From: Desulfuromonadales bacterium | Lineage (GTDB): Bacteria > Desulfobacterota > Desulfuromonadia > Desulfuromonadales > BM103 | Length of the DNA stretch: 64,000 nt | Assembly: GCA_014860225.1 (NCBI GenBank) | Contig: JACZKE010000046.1 | Location: 1-64,000, forward strand | Direction of reading: 5' to 3' | Shown here: piece by piece, positions 16,975 to 51,907 of the stretch | How positions within the stretch are numbered: the first letter of the stretch is position 1 | Layout: the number at the start of each line of letters is the position of its first letter | Notes under the pieces: model-generated | The model's input: the letters and a program-made list of their open reading frames with translations, nothing else | Databases searched by the model: none | Told to the model about the DNA's origin: nothing | Program-made: the position numbers and the translations under genes

Positions 16975-17688
16975 TCAGGCGCCGCGCGTGCCGACATGGA
17001 CCGCCGCAATCCCGCCGGTCAGATCATGGACTCTGACTTCAGTAAAACCGGCCTGTTCCATCATACCCTTGAAGGTTTCACGATCAGGAAATTCAAGCAC
17101 TGAGTCAGGAAGGTACTGATAAGCGCTGCGTTGGGAAATCAGACCGCCCAACCAGGGCAGTACGCGCAAAAAATAGAAGTAATAGACCGCCCGGAAAAAG
17201 CGATTGCGTGGTGTCGCAAACTCCAGGATGACAGCCCGACCACCTGGCTTGAGCACACGTGCCATCTCGCACAGCCCTTGCTGCCGATCAACCACATTGC
17301 GGATGCCGAAGGCGATGGTAATCCCGTCAAAGGTACTGTCCGGATGGGGCATTGCTTCGCAAGGGGCATTCACCAGTACAATCCGGTCACGGTATGGTGA
17401 TGCATCAATCTTGTCCCTGCCGAGAACCAGCATCCCCTGAGTGAAATCCGAACCGACAATTTTCACCGAAGCATCTGTCTGACGGCCTATCTCCAGCGCC
17501 ACATCACCGGTTCCCGTAGCGATATCAAGTACCTTGCCGTTTTTCGGTATAACCAGTTGCCGGACCGCGAAACGTCGCCAACGCCTGTCAATACCCAGCG
17601 AAAGAACGCGGTTAAGCAGGTCGTAGCGCGGCGCAATGTGATCAAACATATCGCGGATACCGCGACCTTTGTCAGTAAGTTCGGCCAT
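16975..17688 (-). CDS. ubiE: demethylmenaquinone/ubiquinone C-methyltransferase
   Basis: SAM-dependent enzyme making the last C-methylation of menaquinone (or of ubiquinone precursors). The 237 residues show the UbiE signatures MFDHIAPRYDLLNRVLSLGID and RRWRR, SAM motif I VLDIATGTGDVALEI, and DGITIAFGIRNV. GAGGG lies just before the ATG. Since deltaproteobacteria of this kind respire with menaquinone, MenG activity is the likely role. The gene converges on the AsmA-like gene, with 17 bases between stops. A second, divergent UbiE-like enzyme is at 51161-51907. Confidence 0.95.
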   Translation of the reverse strand: MAELTDKGRGIRDMFDHIAPRYDLLNRVLSLGIDRRWRRFAVRQLVIPKNGKVLDIATGTGDVALEIGRQTDASVKIVGSDFTQGMLVLGRDKIDASPYRDRIVLVNAPCEAMPHPDSTFDGITIAFGIRNVVDRQQGLCEMARVLKPGGRAVILEFATPRNRFFRAVYYFYFLRVLPWLGGLISQRSAYQYLPDSVLEFPDRETFKGMMEQAGFTEVRVHDLTGGIAAVHVGTRGA

Positions 17689-41671: not shown

Positions 41672-42943
41672 ATGGAAGACATCAACAGGTTTCGCGCACT
41701 GGCAATGATCCAGAGCAGCTTTTTTCTGCTTTTGTTTATATTACTGCTACTTTCTGGTAAGGGGACCAGCCTTATTTACGGAGGCAGCTCTTTCGCCCTC
41801 TTGATCGGACTGCACCTTTTTGTCGATTACCGCATGACAGCGGCACGGCTTGCCTCCTCTAAATTTATAATTACCTATATTATCATCTATCTGCTGCTTT
41901 GCACCCTCGTCGTTTGGACGACCAGGGGCAATGAGGAAAGCCCGTACTGGATTGTCTATTTCCTGCCAATCGTGATCGCCGCCTCTAATCTTGGTCTCAA
42001 AGCGACTCTGGCTACCTGTAGTGCGGCGCTACTGATGTTCATAAGTCATTTGCCTCCAAGCATGTATCTCGTCAGGAAAGAGAGAATCGAAGAGTTCCCG
42101 GAACTGTTCGGCTTTGGCATCATGTTTTTTATGGTGGGGATTCTGGTTTACACCTTTGCCCATCAGCATCGTCGGCAACTGGACCTTAAACAGCAACTCA
42201 ACGAAAAATTGCTGGAGAACCAGCAAAACCTGAAAAACTCTCTGGAAAGACTCGAAATTGCGGAGACGAGCCTGCGCACCAAGGAGCGTCTTGCTTCACT
42301 TGGGGAAATGTCGGCTGGAATTGCACATGAGATCCGCAACCCTCTTGGCATCATCTCCTCTTCAGCACAATTGCTCAAAAATGAAATCGCAAATGTGGAT
42401 GCCGGACAGCTGCTCGACATCATCCAGGAAGAATCTGCACGTCTGAATGGCCTGATCACGGATTTCCTGATCTTCGGGCGGCAACTCGAACCGCAATGTC
42501 AGAGCTGCGATCTCGCCACACTGGTCATGCGCAACCTTGAGCACCTCCACAGCATGGCAGAGCAGAAAAGAGTCAGACTCCGTCTCGAGCGTCGTTGCGA
42601 AGCCTGTGAGGCGTTCGTCGATGCCGATATGATGCAGCAGGTCGTGCTCAATCTACTTTTGAACGCACTGGATGCCACAACTGCAGAAGGAGAAATCGTG
42701 GTGACTGTACAACGAACCGATGACCGACTGGAGGTATTTGTACAGGACAATGGTTGCGGCATTCAACTGGCCGATCAGGAAAAGATTTACGACCCGTTCT
42801 TTACGACCAAGAGTAATGGAACCGGACTCGGCCTGGCGAACGCCTACAAGATTGTCGAGAGCCATAATGGCAGCTTGACGGTGCAAAGCGTACCCGGGGA
42901 AGGAAGCATTTTCAAGATTTCGCTCCCAGTGGAGGGCAGCTGA
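41672..42943 (+). CDS. membrane histidine kinase next to the polyketide cluster
   Basis: A 423-residue kinase. About six hydrophobic segments occupy residues 8-165, followed by a coiled linker, HisKA with the phosphorylated His in MSAGIAHEIRNPLGIISSS, and HATPase_c (QVVLNLLLNALDA, DNGCGIQ, SNGTGLGLANA). The membrane part has no large periplasmic domain, so it may sense something in the bilayer such as a lipid or quinone. The stop overlaps the start of the following sigma-54 regulator by one base (TGATG), marking them as a pair. Confidence 0.9.
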   Translation: MEDINRFRALAMIQSSFFLLLFILLLLSGKGTSLIYGGSSFALLIGLHLFVDYRMTAARLASSKFIITYIIIYLLLCTLVVWTTRGNEESPYWIVYFLPIVIAASNLGLKATLATCSAALLMFISHLPPSMYLVRKERIEEFPELFGFGIMFFMVGILVYTFAHQHRRQLDLKQQLNEKLLENQQNLKNSLERLEIAETSLRTKERLASLGEMSAGIAHEIRNPLGIISSSAQLLKNEIANVDAGQLLDIIQEESARLNGLITDFLIFGRQLEPQCQSCDLATLVMRNLEHLHSMAEQKRVRLRLERRCEACEAFVDADMMQQVVLNLLLNALDATTAEGEIVVTVQRTDDRLEVFVQDNGCGIQLADQEKIYDPFFTTKSNGTGLGLANAYKIVESHNGSLTVQSVPGEGSIFKISLPVEGS

Positions 42944-44346
42944 TGGCGCATATCCTGATTGTCGATGACGAGAAGAACTACCGGATTGTTCTTTCCCGGA
43001 TTCTCGAGGATGCCGGACACCGTGTGTCTCTAGCGGAGAACCCGTTTGCAGCTCTGGAGCTACTGTCTCACGAAGGCGTGGCTCTGATCCTCTCCGATCT
43101 GCGGATGCCGCACATGGACGGCATGGCTTTTTTTCAACGGGTCCGTGAAGAGGTAGGTGATGTGCCGTTCATCATCATGACCGCGTTTGCAACGGTCGAG
43201 ACGGCACTGCAGGCGATGAAGGCGGGTGCCTTCGATTACCTGATGAAGCCATTCCAGAACGAGGAGATACTGATTATCGTCGAGAAGGCGCTCACATTTG
43301 CCCGACTGCAGACTGAGAATGCCCTGCTGCGCCGCCAACTCGAAACCAGTATCGGCCAGGAGATCATGGGCCAGGCTCCAGCGATCCGCCAGCTTCTTCA
43401 GGATATCGGTCGGGTTGCACCGACCCCGACATCAGTTCTGATCTGTGGCGAAAGCGGGACCGGCAAGGAACTGGTGGCGCGGGCACTACATCGGTCGAGT
43501 CCCCGGAAAGCAGCTGCGTTAGTAACTATCAATTGTGCAGCGTTTGCCGAGAACCTGATTGAAAGTGAGTTGTTCGGCCATGAGCGCGGAGCATTCACCG
43601 GGGCAATTGAACGGAAGCGAGGACTGGTCGAAATGGCTGATGGCGGAACCTTGTTCCTCGATGAGATTGGTGAGCTCCCTTTGCCTCTGCAGCCAAAATT
43701 GCTACGACTGTTGCAGGAAAAACGCTTCCGTCGGGTGGGTGGGACTGCCGAGATCGAAACTGATGTGCGCGTGGTGGCGGCTACGCACCGTGACCTGCAG
43801 GCCATGATTGATGCCGGGCAGTTTCGTGAAGATCTCTATTACCGCCTCAACGTAGTGTCTCTGCAGATTCCGCCCTTGCGTAAGAGACCTGAGGATATCG
43901 GGCTGCTGGGACTGTTCTTCATCGAAGATTACGCCCGCAAGCTGGGACGTCCGGTTCATGGATTCTCTGCTGAGGCCTTGCGTCTGCTACAAGACTACAG
44001 TTGGCCGGGAAATATCCGTGAGCTGCAGAATGTGATTGAGCGGGGAGTGTTGTTCTGCAGTGGCGAGCAACTGCTGCCCGAAGACCTGCCTGATATCTTC
44101 CGGAAAGACAATGTAACTGCGGAGCCACGACCTTTGCCCCCACTTGAGTTCAACAAGCCGCTGCCTGAGCAGCTTGACGAGATCGAGGAAAACCTGATCC
44201 GCAGGGCCATGGTGCAGGCACGCGGCGTGCAAGCCCATGCTGCCCGCCTGCTGGGGATCAGTCGTAGCAATCTGCAGCATAAACTGCACAAATACGATCT
44301 TGGCTCGAGCAAATTTTCATCCGCAGAACAAACGGTTCCGGATTGA
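42943..44346 (+). CDS. sigma-54 response regulator next to the polyketide cluster
   Basis: A 467-residue NtrC-family activator. The receiver domain begins ILIVDDEKNYRIVLSRIL, with Asp in LILSDLRMPHMDG. The AAA+ domain has GESGTGKELVARAL, GAFTGAIERKRG and LFLDEIGEL, and the Fis-type DNA-binding end reads VQAHAARLLGISRSNLQHKL. Partner of the kinase upstream. The only sigma-54 promoter close by (44486-44502) lies 140 bases downstream and faces the polyketide operon, its likely target. Confidence 0.92.
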   Translation: MAHILIVDDEKNYRIVLSRILEDAGHRVSLAENPFAALELLSHEGVALILSDLRMPHMDGMAFFQRVREEVGDVPFIIMTAFATVETALQAMKAGAFDYLMKPFQNEEILIIVEKALTFARLQTENALLRRQLETSIGQEIMGQAPAIRQLLQDIGRVAPTPTSVLICGESGTGKELVARALHRSSPRKAAALVTINCAAFAENLIESELFGHERGAFTGAIERKRGLVEMADGGTLFLDEIGELPLPLQPKLLRLLQEKRFRRVGGTAEIETDVRVVAATHRDLQAMIDAGQFREDLYYRLNVVSLQIPPLRKRPEDIGLLGLFFIEDYARKLGRPVHGFSAEALRLLQDYSWPGNIRELQNVIERGVLFCSGEQLLPEDLPDIFRKDNVTAEPRPLPPLEFNKPLPEQLDEIEENLIRRAMVQARGVQAHAARLLGISRSNLQHKLHKYDLGSSKFSSAEQTVPD

Positions 44347-44642
44347 AAACTGCATCGCGACGATCCGGAGTCTCCAGTACAAAATCCTGGCACAGGGTTT
44401 CATAGCCCACCGTTGCCGTATAAATAATTGTACAATATACTCTCTTCCTGGCTGCATCCCCCACTGATATCAGCAAGTTACCCTTTTGGCACAATGTCTG
44501 CTATCTAGATGACTGTCGGTTCATATAGTCAACAGGCACCTGGAGGAACGACAATCGCCTTGCCAAGATGTTCATATTTGCCTCAGAGCCTTCCGCAGGG
44601 AGACCTTTGTTTTACAATGCAGATGATGCAACAGGAGTTTGA
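44347..44642. other. regulatory region of the polyketide operon
   Basis: A 296-base gap without a gene. It contains a 10-bp palindrome ATTGTACAAT (44427-44436) about 55 bases upstream of the sigma-54 promoter, a possible activator site, and the promoter itself. The transcribed leader would be about 130 bases. A second TGGCAC at about 44390 lacks a matching -12 element. Confidence 0.55.
44486..44502 (+). promoter_or_regulatory. sigma-54 promoter of the polyketide operon
   Basis: TTGGCACAATGTCTGCT has the -24 TGGCAC, five bases, then CTGC at -12, with GG and GC at the required 10-base separation. One mismatch to the TGGCAC-N5-TTGC consensus. Transcription would start near 44513. Confidence 0.75.
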
Positions 44643-45125
44643 GTGAAGATGAGCTTCATTGCCGCGACAAGACTGCCGATCCTCGTCGTCGATGACGAGA
44701 AGAACTATCGAATCATCCTGTCGAGGATATTGACAGGAGCAGGTTATCAGGTTTTGACCGCCGACGGTTTGCAGGCCGCCATGAGACTTCTCCGGGAGCA
44801 ACCCGTTGCACTGATTCTTTCCGACATGCACATGCCAGAAATCGGTGGTCTGGAATTATGTCGGCTCGTTTCACGAGACATCGGCTCAATTCCGTTTATA
44901 CTTTTTTCAGCCTTTATCTCAGCACACTCTCGGCAACAGATCGATGCGACCGTTGATTCGTGGGGTAGCCTGAGCAAACCTTTCGACAATCAGGACGTAC
45001 TGTCGCTGATCGAAACAGTACTGACTGCGTCGACAAGCTGCCCGCAGTCGACGCATGAGCAGAACCACGACAAAACGGCATCAAAAAAGTTTCACATCTA
45101 TACTGATGAGCAGGAGAACATATGA
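44643..45125 (+). CDS. stand-alone receiver domain
   Basis: A 160-residue protein consisting of one receiver domain (about 8-125) and a short charged tail, with no output domain. VVDDEKNYRIILSRILTGAG and LILSDMHMPEIGGLE are nearly the same as in the sigma-54 regulator upstream, so it is probably a duplicate of that receiver. The phosphoacceptor Asp and the Lys (LSKPF) are kept. It may act as a phosphate sink or shuttle for the same kinase. The start is GTG at 44643, with GGAG 6 bases before. Its stop overlaps the next start (ATGA, 45122-45125). Confidence 0.88.
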   Translation: MKMSFIAATRLPILVVDDEKNYRIILSRILTGAGYQVLTADGLQAAMRLLREQPVALILSDMHMPEIGGLELCRLVSRDIGSIPFILFSAFISAHSRQQIDATVDSWGSLSKPFDNQDVLSLIETVLTASTSCPQSTHEQNHDKTASKKFHIYTDEQENI

Positions 45126-45703
45126 AGCACAAAGCCCTGGCAAGCTTGGTTGTATTCCTGCTGTTGGCGACAACAGCATCAGCACTGACCCTGGAAGGGA
45201 GCTGCGACATCCGCTTCTTTGGTCGCTCGACCCTGCACAACTTTGACGGCACAGCGGCCTGTCAACCCTTCACCCTGACAACCTCAGGTGAAATCGGGGA
45301 CAGCGGAATTATCCGGCAAACGGTGGTCGAAGTGTTGGTCGAGGAGATGGATACCGGCAATTCTATTCGTGACAAGCAGATGTACGCCATGTTCGGACAA
45401 AAGAGCTATCCACATATTCAGGGCCTGTTCGACGATCTCGATCCTGATGTAGTCATAAAACAGTTGCAGGCGGAGAACGATGCTTCGGCACACCTGGAAT
45501 TTGACCTGCGGATTCGCGATATCAGCCAGCGGGTGAAGGCCGTGACCCGTGACCTGGTGGTTAATCCGGAACAGATTTCATTCACAATGGTATTCCCGGT
45601 TTCTCTGGTCAGCTTCCAACTGCATCCTCCCAGTGTTCTGGGCTTCATCAAGGTCGACGACCAGATACAAGCGGAAGTCAGGGTGTTGTTATTGCGGCAT
45701 TGA
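45122..45703 (+). CDS. YceI-like periplasmic lipid-binding protein
   Basis: A 193-residue exported protein: signal peptide ALASLVVFLLLATTASA, then a YceI-like lipocalin fold. Recognisable pieces are the strand GRSTLHNFDGTA, the EEMDTGNSIRDKQMYAMF segment with YPHIQG, and a beta-rich C-terminal half. Characterised YceI proteins bind polyisoprenoid chains, including quinone-like lipids. Its start overlaps the receiver gene, and the polyketide synthase follows 41 bases later. I infer a carrier for the cluster's lipid product; the fold assignment is moderately strong. Confidence 0.72.
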   Translation: MKHKALASLVVFLLLATTASALTLEGSCDIRFFGRSTLHNFDGTAACQPFTLTTSGEIGDSGIIRQTVVEVLVEEMDTGNSIRDKQMYAMFGQKSYPHIQGLFDDLDPDVVIKQLQAENDASAHLEFDLRIRDISQRVKAVTRDLVVNPEQISFTMVFPVSLVSFQLHPPSVLGFIKVDDQIQAEVRVLLLRH

Positions 45704-45744: not shown

Positions 45745-46902
45745 ATGTCCGTCTGGATTCAGCATATTGAAACGTTAACGCCGGATATGATCTATTCTCA
45801 GGAATACGCCAGCAGCAAAATGCAGGAATGGACCGATGATGACCGACAACGTCGCATGATTCGGGCCCTTTACCGCAAATCGGGGATTGATAAACGGCAC
45901 AGCGTGATCACGTCCTTCGATCAGAACCTGCCAGGTGACTTTTTTCCACTCGGAGCTGACGGACAGCGCCGCGAGTTGTCCACGGCCGAGCGCAACAGGA
46001 TTTATACGCGGGAGTCCCAGCGCCTCGCGGTTGACCTGGCCCGCCAGACCATTGACAACTGCGCCGGGCTGAAGCCGTCGGGGATCACTCATGTAGTCAC
46101 GGCATCCTGCACGGGTTTCTGTAATCCCGGTCCAGACTACCACATCATTAACGAGCTCGGTCTGTCGCATGCCACGCAGCGTTACAATCTTGGCTTTATG
46201 GGTTGCTATGCGGCCTTTCCGGCTTTGCGTATGGCCAAACAATTCTGTGAAGCCGATCCTGCGGCGGTGGTCCTTGTCATGTGTCTGGAGCTCTGTACTC
46301 TGCATCTTCAGATCAACGGCGGTGAAGATTCCATGCTCGCCAACTCCCTGTTTGCTGATGGGGCTGCAGCAGCCATCGTCAGCGCCCGCACACCACAGGA
46401 GAATCAGTCCTGCTTCAAACTTGGCAATTTCCACTCCAGCCTGATCCCGAGCGGCAAAGACGATATGGCCTGGTCCATTGGTGATCTCGGCTTCGACATC
46501 GCCTTGTCAAGCTATGTGCCGAAGATCATCGGCGCCAATATCCGTGATGCCGTCCGCCCGGTGCTTACCTCCGGGGAGCTCGAGCTGGAAGACATCTCGA
46601 CCTGGGCCGTCCACCCGGGCGGCAAGGCGATCGTCGACAAGGTCGCTGAGAGTCTCGCCCTCAATCAGGACCAGGTTGCCTCCGCCCGAAAAGTCCTGCG
46701 CCAGTACGGCAACATGAGCAGCGCAACCATACTCTTCGTCCTCCAGGCGATCCTGCAACAGCAGGATCGCCCGCGCCATGAAGAGGTCTGCGCCATGGCC
46801 TTCGGACCGGGGTTGACCGTTGAGATGGGGCTGTTGCAGGCGCAACGAGCCCACAGCCCGAGCAGAGCAGAGGCCGAGAGCGAGGAGGCCCTGGTACCAT
46901 GA
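45745..46902 (+). CDS. type III polyketide synthase (chalcone/stilbene synthase family)
   Basis: A 385-residue homodimeric-type condensing enzyme that extends a CoA or ACP starter with malonyl units and cyclises the chain. The triad is complete: Cys154 (LGFMGCYAAF), His290 (WAVHPGGKAIVD) and Asn323 (YGNMSSATILF). CTGFCNPGPDYHIINELGL matches the family segment before the active Cys. FabH is excluded by YGNMSSA and length. Bacterial relatives make alkylresorcinols, alkylpyrones or phloroglucinols; which one applies cannot be read here. AAGGAG precedes ATG at 45745. The MMPL gene follows after 22 bases. Confidence 0.93.
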   Translation: MSVWIQHIETLTPDMIYSQEYASSKMQEWTDDDRQRRMIRALYRKSGIDKRHSVITSFDQNLPGDFFPLGADGQRRELSTAERNRIYTRESQRLAVDLARQTIDNCAGLKPSGITHVVTASCTGFCNPGPDYHIINELGLSHATQRYNLGFMGCYAAFPALRMAKQFCEADPAAVVLVMCLELCTLHLQINGGEDSMLANSLFADGAAAAIVSARTPQENQSCFKLGNFHSSLIPSGKDDMAWSIGDLGFDIALSSYVPKIIGANIRDAVRPVLTSGELELEDISTWAVHPGGKAIVDKVAESLALNQDQVASARKVLRQYGNMSSATILFVLQAILQQQDRPRHEEVCAMAFGPGLTVEMGLLQAQRAHSPSRAEAESEEALVP

Positions 46903-46924
46903 GTTTGTGGCTGCTGGCTGATTG

Positions 46925-49201
46925 ATGTCTGTGCTGGTGCAAAAATATCTGTTTTGGCTGCTTACCAGCGGACGCTACCCTGTTCTGGGATGCATATTGT
47001 TAATCACGGTTGTTTTGGCACTCTTTGCCGCCGAGGTGTCTGTTGAGCAGGGTACTCGCTCGATGAGTGCCCACCAACCGGGGCAGTTGGCTGACCATGA
47101 ACGTTTCCTCGACTTGTTCGGCAACGATGAAGACCTGTTGCTGACCATTACCCATCCACAATTGCTGACTCCGGCGGTTCTCGATCTGCTGGCCGAAGTA
47201 ACCCGACGACTCAGCGATCTGGAAGGGGTCCGGAGGGTTTTCAGCCTGAGTAATGCGCGGCAGTTGGTCAGTAGCAAATATGGTGCGGAAATCCGACCGC
47301 TGCTGCCGTCCTCCGATAATGCAGATTTCGCAAGAGTCCTGCTGGCCGCACTGAGCGCTAATCCTGAGTATGAAGGCCTGCTGATTTCGACAGACCGCAA
47401 GACCGCCGGTCTGGTCATTTCACTGAAGGACCAGCGCGGCGACCCCGCTCAGCGCAGCAGACTGATTGGTGAGGTGCGCGAACTGATGGCCAATCTGGGC
47501 GACCGCGCCGAGTTTCACCTGACCGGCGTCGGTGTTCAGCAAAGCGATGTGGCCGGCTACATCCAGCGTGACCAGCGGGTCATTCTCCCCATGGTGGCAA
47601 TCGCCCTGATGGTTATGTTGGCTGTGATTTTCAGAAGACTCTCGGGAATACTGCTACCGTTGCTTGCAACCGGCATCAGTCTCATCTGGACCATGGGTCT
47701 CTATGTATTGGGCGGCTTTGAACTCAACACCATCACCTCCCTGCTGTCACCGGTGGTGATGGTGCTGGCGATCTCAAACTGCGTCCATATTTATAACGGT
47801 TGGCTGCATCTTGACGGAGCTGATGACCACCGCATCGCACTGCTTGTCGACAAGGTTGATGAACTCTTTGTTCCCTGCCTGTTCACGGCACTGACCACGG
47901 CCCTCGGTCTGGTCTCCCTGACTATCAGCTCGGTGCCTGCGGTCCGCCAGTTCGGTCTGTTTGCGGCAGTCGGTGTCATGATCTCTTTCCTGGTCAGTCT
48001 GACTCTGGTGCCAATAGTCTTGAGCTACCTGCCGCTGCCCGGCCGCCGTTATCGTGACGGACTCGGCCTGCTCCGTTGGACCTTGCAGGCCATTGCCGGC
48101 CTGACAGTCCGGCATCCTCTGGCAATCATGCTGGTCGCCCTGCTTCTGCTGGGTATGGCCTTAACCGGGCTGCCAAGATTGGAGAACAACACCGCGCTGG
48201 TCGCATTTCTGCATACCGACGCGCCACTGGCTGTCGACACCCGTTATATCGATGAACACCTGGCTGGTGTCAATGCTCTCGAGTTCATATTAGAAAAACA
48301 GGATGGAAGCCCACTAGCAGAACTTGACGATTATACAAAACTAGTTGCATTCGAAGCTCTCGCCCAGCATCAGCAGCCGGTCACCAGCGTCTTTTCAATT
48401 CTGAGCCTGTTGCGCCAACTGCATCGCGCAGAGAGTGGCAGCCAGTCGTCAGAACTGCCCGCTGATGATGACGAGCTGCATTATGAACTTGACCTGCTCG
48501 GCATGGCAGAAGACCAATACATGCAAAGCCGCTTTTTAACGCCGGACCTGCAGACAGCGAGGATCAGCGTATGGCTCCACGATGTCGGCAGCCGTTCTGC
48601 CGCAGCTGTAACCGACAAGCTTCTGGAACAGGGTCGTGCCCTCTTCGGATCGGACTACCGGCTGACGCCGACCGGCAGCTTTTACCAGATGAATCACGAT
48701 TCGAACCGCCTGGTAGCCGATATGGTCAAAAGCTTCTCTCTTTCGATTGGCCTGGTTCTGTTGTCGATTCTGGTCTTGCTTCGCTCGCTGCGTTTAACCC
48801 TGCTGGCGATGATTCCGAATGTCATTCCAATCCTCTGGGCGCTAGGCCTGATGGGATTCTGCGGCATCGATCTCAGCACCGGTACAGCGATGATCGGTGC
48901 AGTGGTCTTCGGTCTTGCTGTTGACGACACTATTCACTATCTGGTGCACTACCGACGGATCTATGCCGGCGTTGCCAGAGAAGCGGTGACAACCACTACT
49001 ACCCGGACCGGAAGGGCACTGATGATCGCTTCTCTGGTACTGGCAGTCGGTTTCTGGGTCGGTTGCTTCAGCAGCTTCAAGCCGACCGTCTACTTTTCAT
49101 TGCTGGTGGGCGGAACCCTGCTCGGCGCGCTGATCTGCGACCTGCTGGTCCTGCCTGCCTGTCTGATCCTCAACTGCCCATCTCGTAAGGGAGTGCGCTG
49201 A
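46925..49201 (+). CDS. MMPL/RND-family lipid exporter
   Basis: A 758-residue inner-membrane transporter with the RND duplication. TM1 is followed by a periplasmic domain to about residue 215, then five or six helices including LLSPVVMVLAISNCVHIYNGW. A second TM plus periplasmic domain follows, and a final bundle with AVVFGLAVDDTIHYLVHY. Relatives move hydrophobic molecules such as hopanoids and mycolates. The ribosome site is weak; TTG at 46922 is equally possible. It follows the polyketide synthase by 22 bases and shares TGATG with the next gene. Likely exporter of the cluster product. Confidence 0.9.
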   Translation: MSVLVQKYLFWLLTSGRYPVLGCILLITVVLALFAAEVSVEQGTRSMSAHQPGQLADHERFLDLFGNDEDLLLTITHPQLLTPAVLDLLAEVTRRLSDLEGVRRVFSLSNARQLVSSKYGAEIRPLLPSSDNADFARVLLAALSANPEYEGLLISTDRKTAGLVISLKDQRGDPAQRSRLIGEVRELMANLGDRAEFHLTGVGVQQSDVAGYIQRDQRVILPMVAIALMVMLAVIFRRLSGILLPLLATGISLIWTMGLYVLGGFELNTITSLLSPVVMVLAISNCVHIYNGWLHLDGADDHRIALLVDKVDELFVPCLFTALTTALGLVSLTISSVPAVRQFGLFAAVGVMISFLVSLTLVPIVLSYLPLPGRRYRDGLGLLRWTLQAIAGLTVRHPLAIMLVALLLLGMALTGLPRLENNTALVAFLHTDAPLAVDTRYIDEHLAGVNALEFILEKQDGSPLAELDDYTKLVAFEALAQHQQPVTSVFSILSLLRQLHRAESGSQSSELPADDDELHYELDLLGMAEDQYMQSRFLTPDLQTARISVWLHDVGSRSAAAVTDKLLEQGRALFGSDYRLTPTGSFYQMNHDSNRLVADMVKSFSLSIGLVLLSILVLLRSLRLTLLAMIPNVIPILWALGLMGFCGIDLSTGTAMIGAVVFGLAVDDTIHYLVHYRRIYAGVAREAVTTTTTRTGRALMIASLVLAVGFWVGCFSSFKPTVYFSLLVGGTLLGALICDLLVLPACLILNCPSRKGVR

Positions 49202-49839
49202 TGAGAATTGTTATGCTGACCTGGATCGGGATTTTTTGCCTGGCTACCTGGTCGATTGCTGCCCAGGAGCCTGGGGCGCGCTATGCCGGGCAGTTGGACT
49301 GGACCCGGGATCTGATCGTGAAAAGAGTCGTCGTTCCTTCCGCAGATCAGCCCGAGGGCGAGGTGCAGCTGATCCGGCGCGGCGACCTTCTGGTGGTGCG
49401 GACTCTGCTTTCGAGTCGGATTCTGAAACGGGTAGTCGCAGCAATTGACTCCAGGGAAAACCGCAGTTGGCCAGAAACACGTGAGGGCCATATTGATTCA
49501 CTCCGTTACCGTGAAGAGCTGTTTCGCGCCACAGAGAAGTCCTGGGAAGCCTTCCGGCAGCGCAGTGACCGCAACCGGGATCGTCAGACGCTGGCGATTG
49601 AATTCATCCTCGGTCCGAATCAGTCGCTGATCGCCCTGTCGTTGCCGCAGCTATCAGAAAAAGGCGGCAATCTATGTTTGATCGACAAGCGCTCGCTAAA
49701 GGTCTGGAGGGGATCGGAAGATTATGTGCGAGCGAACATTCTTGAAATCATCAAAGACAGTTTTCATCTCGATGATGCCGCTATCGCAGAACTTTTAAAA
49801 CCGCTCTGGCCGAGTCATAAAAAGGCCTTGCGAGATTAA
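49201..49839 (+). CDS. exported protein of unknown function
   Basis: A 212-residue protein with a signal peptide (VMLTWIGIFCLATWSIAA). The mature part is rich in beta-like stretches (LIVKRVVVPSADQPEGEVQL, DLLVVRTLLSSRILKRVV) and ends in a helix. I recognise no family. MMPL exporters are often paired with LolA-like periplasmic chaperones, and the size and placement would fit, but no LolA motif is evident. It overlaps the MMPL stop by one base, so it is coupled to the exporter. Confidence 0.8.
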   Translation: MRIVMLTWIGIFCLATWSIAAQEPGARYAGQLDWTRDLIVKRVVVPSADQPEGEVQLIRRGDLLVVRTLLSSRILKRVVAAIDSRENRSWPETREGHIDSLRYREELFRATEKSWEAFRQRSDRNRDRQTLAIEFILGPNQSLIALSLPQLSEKGGNLCLIDKRSLKVWRGSEDYVRANILEIIKDSFHLDDAAIAELLKPLWPSHKKALRD

Positions 49840-49865: not shown

Positions 49866-51146
49866 ATGAGATTGAGCATTGCAACCAACTTTGACCGGGA
49901 ACTGGTCGAACAGTGCCGCGATTACCCGGTTACCGAGCTGTTTGGCAAGCTGCAAACCGATGCGGTGGGCGGCGGACGGGCACCTTACCAGCTAGCCAGG
50001 GTGTCGCGTCGGCAACTGGCCGACCACGTCAAGCATGTCCGGAATTCCGGAATGGCCTTCAATTACCTGTTGAATTCTTCCTGTATGGGCAATCGTGAGA
50101 TTACCCGCAAAGGTCAGAAAGAGATCAACGTACTGCTTGACTGGATCAGCGATATCGGTGTCACGGCAGTGACCGTCGCTTCACCTTTCATGCTGCAGAT
50201 GATCAAAACCCGTCAGCCGCAACTTAAAGTACGCATCTCGGTGTTCGGCGGGGTTGACCGGGTGCGTAAAGCGCAGATGTGGGAGGAGCTGGGTGCCGAC
50301 TGCATCGTACTCGACAGCATTCTGGTCAATCGTGAGCTGGCAACCCTGGCTGAGATCCGCAAGTCGGTCAAATGCGACCTGGAGCTGATGGCCAACAACA
50401 ACTGCCTGACCGGCTGCGCCATGTCGCCGATGCATATGAACGCACTGGCTCATACCGGGCAATCCTGGCACGAGAACAAGGGTTTCTTCATCGACTGGTG
50501 CTTTTTGAAATGTACCGAAATGAAGTTGCGCGATCCGGTGCATTACATCCGCTCGGAATGGATCCGTCCCGAAGATCTGCATGTCTACGAAGGAATGGGT
50601 TACGACCTGTTCAAGCTCGCCGAACGCGACATCCCCACAGAGATGATGATGATCAGGATCAAGGCCTATGCCGCGCGCCGTTATGACGGCAACCTGCTCG
50701 ACCTGATTCAGGCCTACGGCTTCAAGGGGATCAAGGAGAGTCACAGTTACTACCGGCATGGTCTCAGCTGGCTACTGCGTTTCATCATCCGACCTGGCCT
50801 GGCCAATCCATTGCGAATGCTGCCACTCAAACGGCTGGCCGAACTCCGCGGCATGACCAGACCGGTCGAGGATCAAGCGCCGGTCTATATTGATAACCGT
50901 GCGCTGGACGGCTTCATAGAGCGCTTCCGCACCAACAGCTGCATGGATATCGATTGTGAGAATTGTCGCTGGTGTCATGAGTTCGCAGCCAAAGCGGTCA
51001 AGATTGATGAGACCAATCGCGACGCCGCTCTTGAAGCTTACGAAGAGCTGTTTGCATCCCTGCATGGCGGCAGCATGTGGTCTTACCTGCCTGAACGCAG
51101 CAGCGAGCCCGACCGCTCACCGCGCAAGCAGTGTAAATCGACTTGA
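49866..51146 (+). CDS. U32-family protein, UbiU/UbiV-like, with extra Cys cluster
   Basis: A 426-residue protein of the peptidase U32 fold (LSIATNFDRELVEQC, VFGGVDRVRKAQMWEELGAD, IRPEDLHVYEGMGYDLFKL). C180, C184, C212 and C216 are placed like the four Cys that bind a 4Fe-4S cluster in UbiU and UbiV, which hydroxylate ubiquinone precursors without oxygen. A second set, C359-X4-C364-X2-C367-X2-C370, lies near the C-terminus and could bind another metal centre. Beside a type III synthase and a UbiE-like methyltransferase, anaerobic ring hydroxylation is the most sensible role, but this is inference; other U32 proteins modify RNA or act as peptidases. Confidence 0.85.
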   Translation: MRLSIATNFDRELVEQCRDYPVTELFGKLQTDAVGGGRAPYQLARVSRRQLADHVKHVRNSGMAFNYLLNSSCMGNREITRKGQKEINVLLDWISDIGVTAVTVASPFMLQMIKTRQPQLKVRISVFGGVDRVRKAQMWEELGADCIVLDSILVNRELATLAEIRKSVKCDLELMANNNCLTGCAMSPMHMNALAHTGQSWHENKGFFIDWCFLKCTEMKLRDPVHYIRSEWIRPEDLHVYEGMGYDLFKLAERDIPTEMMMIRIKAYAARRYDGNLLDLIQAYGFKGIKESHSYYRHGLSWLLRFIIRPGLANPLRMLPLKRLAELRGMTRPVEDQAPVYIDNRALDGFIERFRTNSCMDIDCENCRWCHEFAAKAVKIDETNRDAALEAYEELFASLHGGSMWSYLPERSSEPDRSPRKQCKST

Positions 51147-51160
51147 GTCTGGAGGGATAT

Positions 51161-51907
51161 GTGTCTAAAAACAGTAAGTTCGCCCTGAAGATCAAGGATT
51201 ATATTCACTCTGCGGAGCGCAGGCGGGAGTATAACGAACAGCATTTCAGCGAGGCCGCCAGCCGTTATGATTTTGCCACCCGCGCGATGTCGCTCGGGCG
51301 TGATTCTGCCTGGAAAAAACAGCTGATCGAAGCCTTGCCGCAATTCACGGCCCCGGTCTGTGTCGATCTCGCCTGCGGGACGGGGGACATCGCTTTCCTA
51401 CTGGCTGAAAAATATCCGGCCGGTCGCATCATTGGCATCGACCTGACAGAACCGATGCTGAAACTGGCCCGGCTACGCAGCGATTCAATCAATATCGAGT
51501 TTGACCGCCAGGATATGGGGGCGACTGATTTCCCGGACGAGTTCGCAGACATCGTCACCGGCGGGTATGCCGTACGAAACGCAGCAGAACTTCGCCAGGC
51601 CTTTTTGGAGATACAGCGCATCCTCAAACCCGGCGGCTTCGTCGCCCTGCTCGATTTTTCCAAACCGCCCAATCTCTGGTTCCAGCAACTGCAGTACCTG
51701 GTCTTGAAATACTGGTGCGGGCTGTGGGGTTTCCTGCTGCATGGTAATTCCGAAGTTCATTCCTACATTTCGGCCAGCCTCAGAGCATTTCCGGACAGCG
51801 TGCAACTGCGCGAGTTCATCGCGGAAAGCGGTTTTGCCGTCGTCCACTCACGGCAATTCTACTTCGGGACTCTGGAGTTGCTGGTCTTACAGAAACAAAC
51901 GACGTGA
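51161..51907 (+). CDS. UbiE/MenG-like SAM methyltransferase
   Basis: A 248-residue class I methyltransferase of the UbiE type: HFSEAASRYDFATRAMSLGRD, SAM motif VDLACGTGDIAFLL, and VTGGYAVRNAAEL in place of the IAFGIRNV of the housekeeping enzyme at 16975. Divergence at this substrate-side segment suggests a different acceptor, plausibly the ring made by the polyketide synthase. The start is GTG at 51161, with GGAGGG 4 bases before; a TTG at 51143 overlapping the previous stop is possible. It is the last clear gene of the operon. Confidence 0.9.
   Translation: MSKNSKFALKIKDYIHSAERRREYNEQHFSEAASRYDFATRAMSLGRDSAWKKQLIEALPQFTAPVCVDLACGTGDIAFLLAEKYPAGRIIGIDLTEPMLKLARLRSDSINIEFDRQDMGATDFPDEFADIVTGGYAVRNAAELRQAFLEIQRILKPGGFVALLDFSKPPNLWFQQLQYLVLKYWCGLWGFLLHGNSEVHSYISASLRAFPDSVQLREFIAESGFAVVHSRQFYFGTLELLVLQKQTT

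Follow-up and report, generated by a model that had tools for sequence, protein, structure and literature searches.

UbiU and UbiV, two U32-family proteins of anaerobic ubiquinone synthesis in Escherichia coli, each bind a [4Fe–4S] cluster and support O2-independent hydroxylation, as stated in the accessible text of the paper describing them (PMC6747719). The accessible text of a 2024 review reports prephenate as the source of the hydroxyl group for UbiU/UbiV. It gives two substrates, ubiquinone and RNA, for the U32 oxidases characterized so far, and describes what their Fe–S clusters do as undetermined (PMC11574389). UbiU-V has also been described in another class of Desulfobacterota, in a paper whose accessible text lacks the words U32, polyketide and Desulfuromonad (PMC13386864).

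Polyketide quinones are made by operons that combine a polyketide synthase (PKS), a methyltransferase and an oxidoreductase, according to the accessible part of PMC9927152. In the polyketide-quinone operons of Actinobacteria and the hidABC-like operons of Planctomycetota and cyanobacteria, a type III PKS, a methyltransferase and a redox enzyme are encoded together, as they are in the operon described here, and a lipid/isoprenoid-binding gene adjoins the operon of 'Saltatorellus ferox', a probable further likeness to ours (PMC9927152, PMC10896814, as far as their accessible text goes). Our operon holds the type III PKS and methyltransferase genes together, whereas in place of a FAD-dependent oxidoreductase it carries a U32 gene; it also differs in that its methyltransferase is of the UbiE type and that an MMPL gene is present. 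In the open literature, no title or abstract opening among the matches listed connects U32 proteins to a type III PKS pathway; the terms 'U32' and 'polyketide' do co-occur in the text of several papers, including PMC7820076.

The window, i.e., the whole 64,000-nucleotide stretch of a Desulfuromonadales genome that was analysed, encodes on its forward strand a U32-family protein of 426 aa with an ATG start (49866–51146). We consider it likely that this protein hydroxylates an aromatic ring without O2 in a polyketide phenolic-lipid/quinone pathway, and that it is exchanged there with an O2-dependent enzyme. While it shares with the UbiU–UbiV pair the U32 domain, a four-Cys core and a proposed role in hydroxylating the ring of a lipid quinone precursor without O2, we note three differences. 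First, it stands on another branch of the family. Second, its core Cys residues are spaced differently, and it has an extra C-terminal Cys set. Third, its operon, a PKS operon, has one U32 gene instead of a pair. A single-gene U32 enzyme whose substrate is a small alkylphenol, accessible by synthesis, could lend itself to assays more readily than UbiU–UbiV with its polyprenyl substrates.

The operon and its proposed pathway

The U32 gene belongs to a run of genes on one strand, spaced −4 to 44 nt apart. The run begins with a stand-alone response-regulator receiver (44643–45125, PF00072) and a YceI-like protein (45122–45703), whose PF04264 score of 21.9 bits is just below the cut-off of 23.7. 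These are followed by a type III PKS (45748–46902, PF02797/PF00195), an HAE3-like MMPL-family transporter (46922–49201, PF03176), a 212-aa protein that accompanies the transporter and gave no family in a Pfam search (49201–49839), the U32 gene, and a UbiE/COQ5-type methyltransferase (51161–51907; PF01209, E 1.4e-35; TIGR01934, 165.6 bits vs 158.35). The methyltransferase likely starts at the GTG at 51161, 14 nt past the U32 stop, with GGAGGG before it. A histidine kinase and an NtrC-type sigma-54 activator (41672–44346, forward strand; PF02518, PF00158) are the likely regulators, and relatives of the two (58–73% identical) also lie upstream of the PKS clusters of genomes G083 and G114. Between the activator and the run, a sigma-54-like site, TGGCACAATGTCTGCT (44487–44502, forward strand), was found by pattern match; it is suggestive only, the window holding three matches vs 0.74 expected and 3 of 100 shuffles as many. 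Elsewhere in the window, on the reverse strand at 17032–17646, another stretch shows about 30% identity to the UbiE-type methyltransferase.

This neighbourhood is largely kept in the subfamily, which comprises 20 rows, those aligned being 63–91% identical to the window's U32 protein. By tblastn (gene calling, which missed some genes, served for gene order only), the methyltransferase gene lies immediately 3′ of U32 in 17 of the 20 loci and a PKS gene within the locus in 16, while a YceI-like gene lies 5′ of the PKS in 13 and the MMPL and 212-aa genes are found in 8. The PKSs of two planctomycete-labelled loci are only 42% (L007) and 36% (L008) identical to ours, that of L007 being on the opposite strand, and locus L025 ends before the PKS position. 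The three loci lacking the methyltransferase are L016 and L023, from Geothermobacter and a neighbour genome, and L013, which has neither PKS nor methyltransferase nearby. The U32 protein of L016, from Geothermobacter hydrogeniphilus, is 75% identical to ours. The genomes of L016 and L023 carry a PKS–MMPL–methyltransferase run elsewhere (L155, L157), and in the Geothermobacter-group genomes G045 and G056 the U32 gene stands apart from the PKS cluster.

In the pathway that we propose, the type III PKS would convert a fatty acyl starter into an alkylresorcinol-like phenol. The U32 protein would then hydroxylate the ring without O2 by means of a putative core [4Fe–4S] cluster, probably with prephenate as the oxygen donor by analogy with UbiU/UbiV, and the UbiE-type enzyme would methylate the product, yielding a polyketide (alkyl) quinone. 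The YceI-like, MMPL and 212-aa proteins may bind or move the lipid, and the conserved C-terminal four-Cys set would provide a probable auxiliary Fe–S cluster. The U32 substrate would probably be a phenolic lipid of polyketide origin rather than a ubiquinone precursor. The closest solved relative of the PKS is Pks18 (1TED, E 7.6e-50), and the two align across the stretches that bear the catalytic triad (Cys, His, Asn); Pks18 is an alkylpyrone synthase, so a pyrone product is also possible. If the proposal is true, anaerobes can make polyketide quinones, which would be possible extra electron carriers in Desulfuromonadales.

The two cysteine sets

The Cys residues of the U32 protein are at positions 17, 73, 146, 170, 180, 184, 212, 216, 359, 364, 367, 370 and 423, and the translated frame places both sets exactly where a sequence-only reading had put them. 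The core set C180, C184, C212 and C216 (CX3CX27CX3C; 50403–50513, forward strand) is recognizable by its conservation and by a profile alignment with RlhA, and the C-terminal set C359-X4-C364-X2-C367-X2-C370 (50940–50975, forward strand) by its conservation in the subfamily and beyond; shuffling the protein 200,000 times produced a CX4CX2CX2C motif in 45 cases. The same reading had taken the core residues to be those expected of UbiU and UbiV. Four Cys are indeed present, but their spacing is unlike the motifs given in the accessible text of PMC6747719, namely CX6CX16CX38C for UbiU, CXnCX12CX3C for UbiV and CX6CX15CX3/4C as the common form.

Relatives came from two sources, i.e., named genome contigs (12 loci) and whole-genome searches, which gave matches, several of them weak and to other U32 proteins, in 19 of 58 relatives, 16 of 136 genomes of the order, 74 of 395 of the phylum, and 17 of 294 of the phylum of the genome that holds L013, a MAG labelled Planctomycetota. 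After deduplication, 73 distinct sequences scored at least 50 bits, and exclusion of the partial L065 and L114 left 71 rows for the clade counts. All 20 subfamily rows have Cys at 73, 170, 180, 184, 212, 216, 359, 364, 367 and 370, so the lack of conservation that would have spoken against the sequence-only reading was not seen. In the wider clade, C180 and C184 are kept in 71/71 rows, C216 in 70/71 and C212 in 46/71, and of the further Cys, C73 (50082–50084, forward strand) in 68/71 and C170 in 59/71. The C-terminal CX3-5CX2CX2C is found in 71/71 rows, having been located by pattern in 12 of the 15 far rows, where the profile alignment lost the C-terminus. It is absent from the four E. coli U32 proteins and from the three other U32 proteins of the source genome. 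The second set is thus no peculiarity of this one protein but a mark of a large U32 clade, whose members occur in at least four gene contexts, and it is genuine and old.

The core set is less uniform. In the 35%-identical groups, 13 of 26 rows carry Pro at position 212, and thus 180/184/212/216 cannot safely be taken as the ligands throughout the clade. C73 is a candidate cluster ligand and may act as such in the groups without C212. The predicted model of the protein (mean pLDDT 71, built from 13 sequences) falls below pLDDT 50 at residues 181–211, too low to read the geometry of the core Cys from it. Flags of '1 TGA' in loci L026 and L027 had raised selenocysteine, which was rejected since the stops do not lie inside the gene.

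The auxiliary Fe–S cluster is set against a structural zinc site at the C-terminal Cys residues, which would leave a single-cluster U32 hydroxylase and is compatible with the reaction proposed above. We regard such a zinc site as a credible but somewhat doubtful reading. CX2C pairs are frequent in zinc sites, CX3-5CX2CX2C corresponds to no ferredoxin spacing known to us, and the predicted model has only moderate confidence in its C-terminal part. Retention of all four C-terminal Cys in 71/71 rows beside the core set fits cluster and zinc equally. Our preferred reading is that the C-terminal set probably holds an auxiliary Fe–S cluster.

Probable exchange with flavin monooxygenases

PKS orthologues, 53–100% identical, occur in 24 of the 136 genomes of the order (at a cut-off of at least 415 bits, which was our choice, the next match scoring 213 bits). 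The subfamily U32 gene is present in 11 genomes of the order, ten of them with a PKS orthologue; the eleventh, G030, has its U32 gene on a 4-kb contig and just a 33%-identical PKS match elsewhere. The other 14 PKS genomes lack U32, and the PKS cluster of 13 of them encodes a flavin monooxygenase, which is broken in two cases. In 11 genomes (G001, G003, G005, G007, G009, G020, G025, G048, G112, G113 and G074) a monooxygenase of about 400 aa adjoins the PKS. Five of these proteins (G009, G020, G025, G048 and G074) were tested and matched PF01494, the other six are 53–73% identical to that of G009, and a short piece of the G005 gene run alone gave no Pfam match. The gene is frame-broken in G007 and represented by a 161-aa piece only in G074, for which assembly error is a possible cause. 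G083 and G114 have instead a 510-aa PF01494 enzyme of a different type, encoded in the same orientation a few genes further upstream. In G012 (locus L147) the PKS adjoins the UbiE-type methyltransferase, and there is neither a U32 nor a monooxygenase gene. Conversely, a search for the ~400-aa monooxygenase in 25 genomes (the 24 with PKS and G030) gave only short matches (at most 59 aa) or none in the 11 U32 genomes, those in the ten genomes with PKS and U32 being N-terminal; the 510-aa type was sought within the fetched loci only.

Fisher's test on these counts (11/0 vs 1/13, G030 included) gives 2.7e-6, a value that treats related genomes as independent, which they are not, so the PKS tree is the better measure. 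On a tree of 32 loci (18 with U32, 13 with a monooxygenase and 1 with neither, rows outside the order included and two genomes with unlinked U32 scored as U32), the labels need four changes, and the starred branches force at least three for the monooxygenase label. The window's own genus holds both states, with U32 in G000, G002 and G006 and the monooxygenase in G001, G003, G005, G007 and G009. In the sister genome G006, whose U32 protein is 87% identical to ours, a broken relic of the 510-aa monooxygenase lies directly after the methyltransferase (L015:9422–9883). This relic is frame-broken and internally deleted, its pieces being 55–70% identical to residues 5–43, 38–120, 324–356 and 480–507, an appearance that would fit decay of the flavin enzyme next to U32. 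No such pieces were found in the window or in loci L014, L139, L140 and L141.

The exchange might instead mark related branches of the pathway, in which the U32 protein and the monooxygenase act on different intermediates or ring positions and do not replace one another. The two genes occupy different places in the cluster, U32 beside the methyltransferase and the ~400-aa monooxygenase beside the PKS, and U32 genes of related groups lie with LuxE/LuxC or with B12 radical-SAM genes, which points to varied substrates. However, the two are mutually exclusive across the 24 PKS genomes, the PKS tree shows several switches of state among PKSs that remain orthologous, and the monooxygenase loci, one of which (L159) is cut by a contig end, still hold the methyltransferase in 11/13 and YceI in 10/13, all of which makes separate branches unlikely. 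Replacement of one hydroxylase by the other is the reading that we retain, and a natural swap between a U32 and a flavin enzyme in one operon points to the substrate. Taken together, gene context and exchange make aromatic hydroxylation likely, and the comparisons argue strongly that it takes place without O2 and serves a polyketide phenolic-lipid pathway. A split by lifestyle was considered and rejected: cytochrome bd subunit I matches were found in 7 of the 25 genomes and COX1 matches in all 25, so terminal oxidases do not set the carriers of U32 apart from those of the monooxygenase, and the presence of U32 is not explained by a missing terminal oxidase.

Family placement and gene contexts of the wider clade

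The U32 protein matches the profile PF01136 (Peptidase_U32) with 38 bits against a curated cut-off of 22.4 (E 1.5e-9), as do all 16 rows of alignment A1 of its relatives at E 0.1 or better, while no NCBIfam profile matched it at E 0.001. By sequence, its sole clear solved relative is 5D88, the U32 protein Mk0906 of Methanopyrus, which is also the top solved fold match of the predicted model (Z 17.2 over residues 1–258, rmsd 3.2 over 203 aligned residues, unrelated barrels reaching Z 16.6); the identity is only 18%. A PDB sequence search with E. coli UbiU returned nothing at E 0.01. Among the characterized proteins, TrhP aligns by profile to the window's protein at E 7.7e-6 and RlhA at E 2.4e-4, with C180, C212 and C216 falling on RlhA C169, C192 and C196. 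The match to UbiU is weak (E 0.0026), and in the UbiV alignment (E 0.2) C73 falls weakly on UbiV C39.

A maximum-likelihood tree of 88 rows was built with 70 of the clade's 73 rows (omitting L006, L065 and L114; members sampled by similarity to the query) and, for comparison, E. coli UbiU, UbiV, RlhA and TrhP, the three other U32 proteins of the genome and eleven other U32 sequences. A branch supported at 100/100 separates all 70 clade rows from the others, although UbiV and several others form long branches and the program warns that some joins are perhaps false. The window's protein falls outside the UbiU/UbiV branch, as represented by the E. coli pair with UbiV on a very long branch of unsure place, outside the branches of E. 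coli RlhA and TrhP, and outside the other sampled U32 branches. The placement among RNA hydroxylases or peptidases that would have spoken against the sequence-only reading was therefore not seen, and of its proposal of a distinct subtype of anaerobic hydroxylase, the distinct clade is supported by the tree and both Cys sets, whereas the hydroxylase part, which draws on gene context and the monooxygenase exchange, is likely. No existing name was found for the clade. The window's protein has the U32 domain in common with RlhA and TrhP, but it differs from these E. coli proteins in its separate branch, in its C-terminal four-Cys set, and in a neighbourhood that suggests a lipid substrate. It is highly improbable that the protein is an ordinary U32 peptidase, or hydroxylates RNA as RlhA and TrhP do, and lies in the operon by chance: the Pfam name and the detectable profile alignments with TrhP and RlhA would suit such a role, but the clade is set well apart in the tree, the same genome has three further U32 genes, and the neighbourhood with its lipid-type pathway is conserved.

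The wider clade occurs in varied contexts. In a group about 40% identical to our protein, four of five loci (L095, L096, L143 and L144) have the order U32–methyltransferase–type III PKS; the fifth, L131, starts 0.3 kb before U32 and shows no PKS. In more distant groups, U32 lies downstream of flavoprotein, LuxE and LuxC genes (L085, L086, L091, L092 and L097), or with LuxE and LuxC without a flavoprotein match (L094), or is followed by a B12-binding radical-SAM gene of a BchE-like type (L087–L090, L093, L098 and L103). None of the five planctomycete sister loci fetched (L126–L130) has a PKS nearby. These contexts show that the U32 clade is no PKS specialist; they fit a general hydroxylase type with varied substrates, and they warn against inferring function from a single neighbourhood. 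More broadly, we propose, at somewhat less than an even chance, that a two-cluster, single-chain U32 clade, recognizable by its C-terminal CX3-5CX2CX2C set, hydroxylates without O2 in several lipid pathways, serving in Desulfuromonadales an anaerobic polyketide-quinone pathway with repeated monooxygenase exchange.

Three smaller observations concern individual loci. L085 and L086 (genomes G266 and G205) contain tandem U32 pairs in which one copy has C212 and D210 and its neighbour Pro and Gln, an arrangement reminiscent of a UbiU–UbiV-like pair. In L088, genes resembling those of a branched-chain amino acid ABC transporter also lie beside the U32 and radical-SAM genes. In one of the five sister loci (L126:1–3262, genome G689), U32 stands between TrpE-like and TrpG-like genes, which were named by eye.
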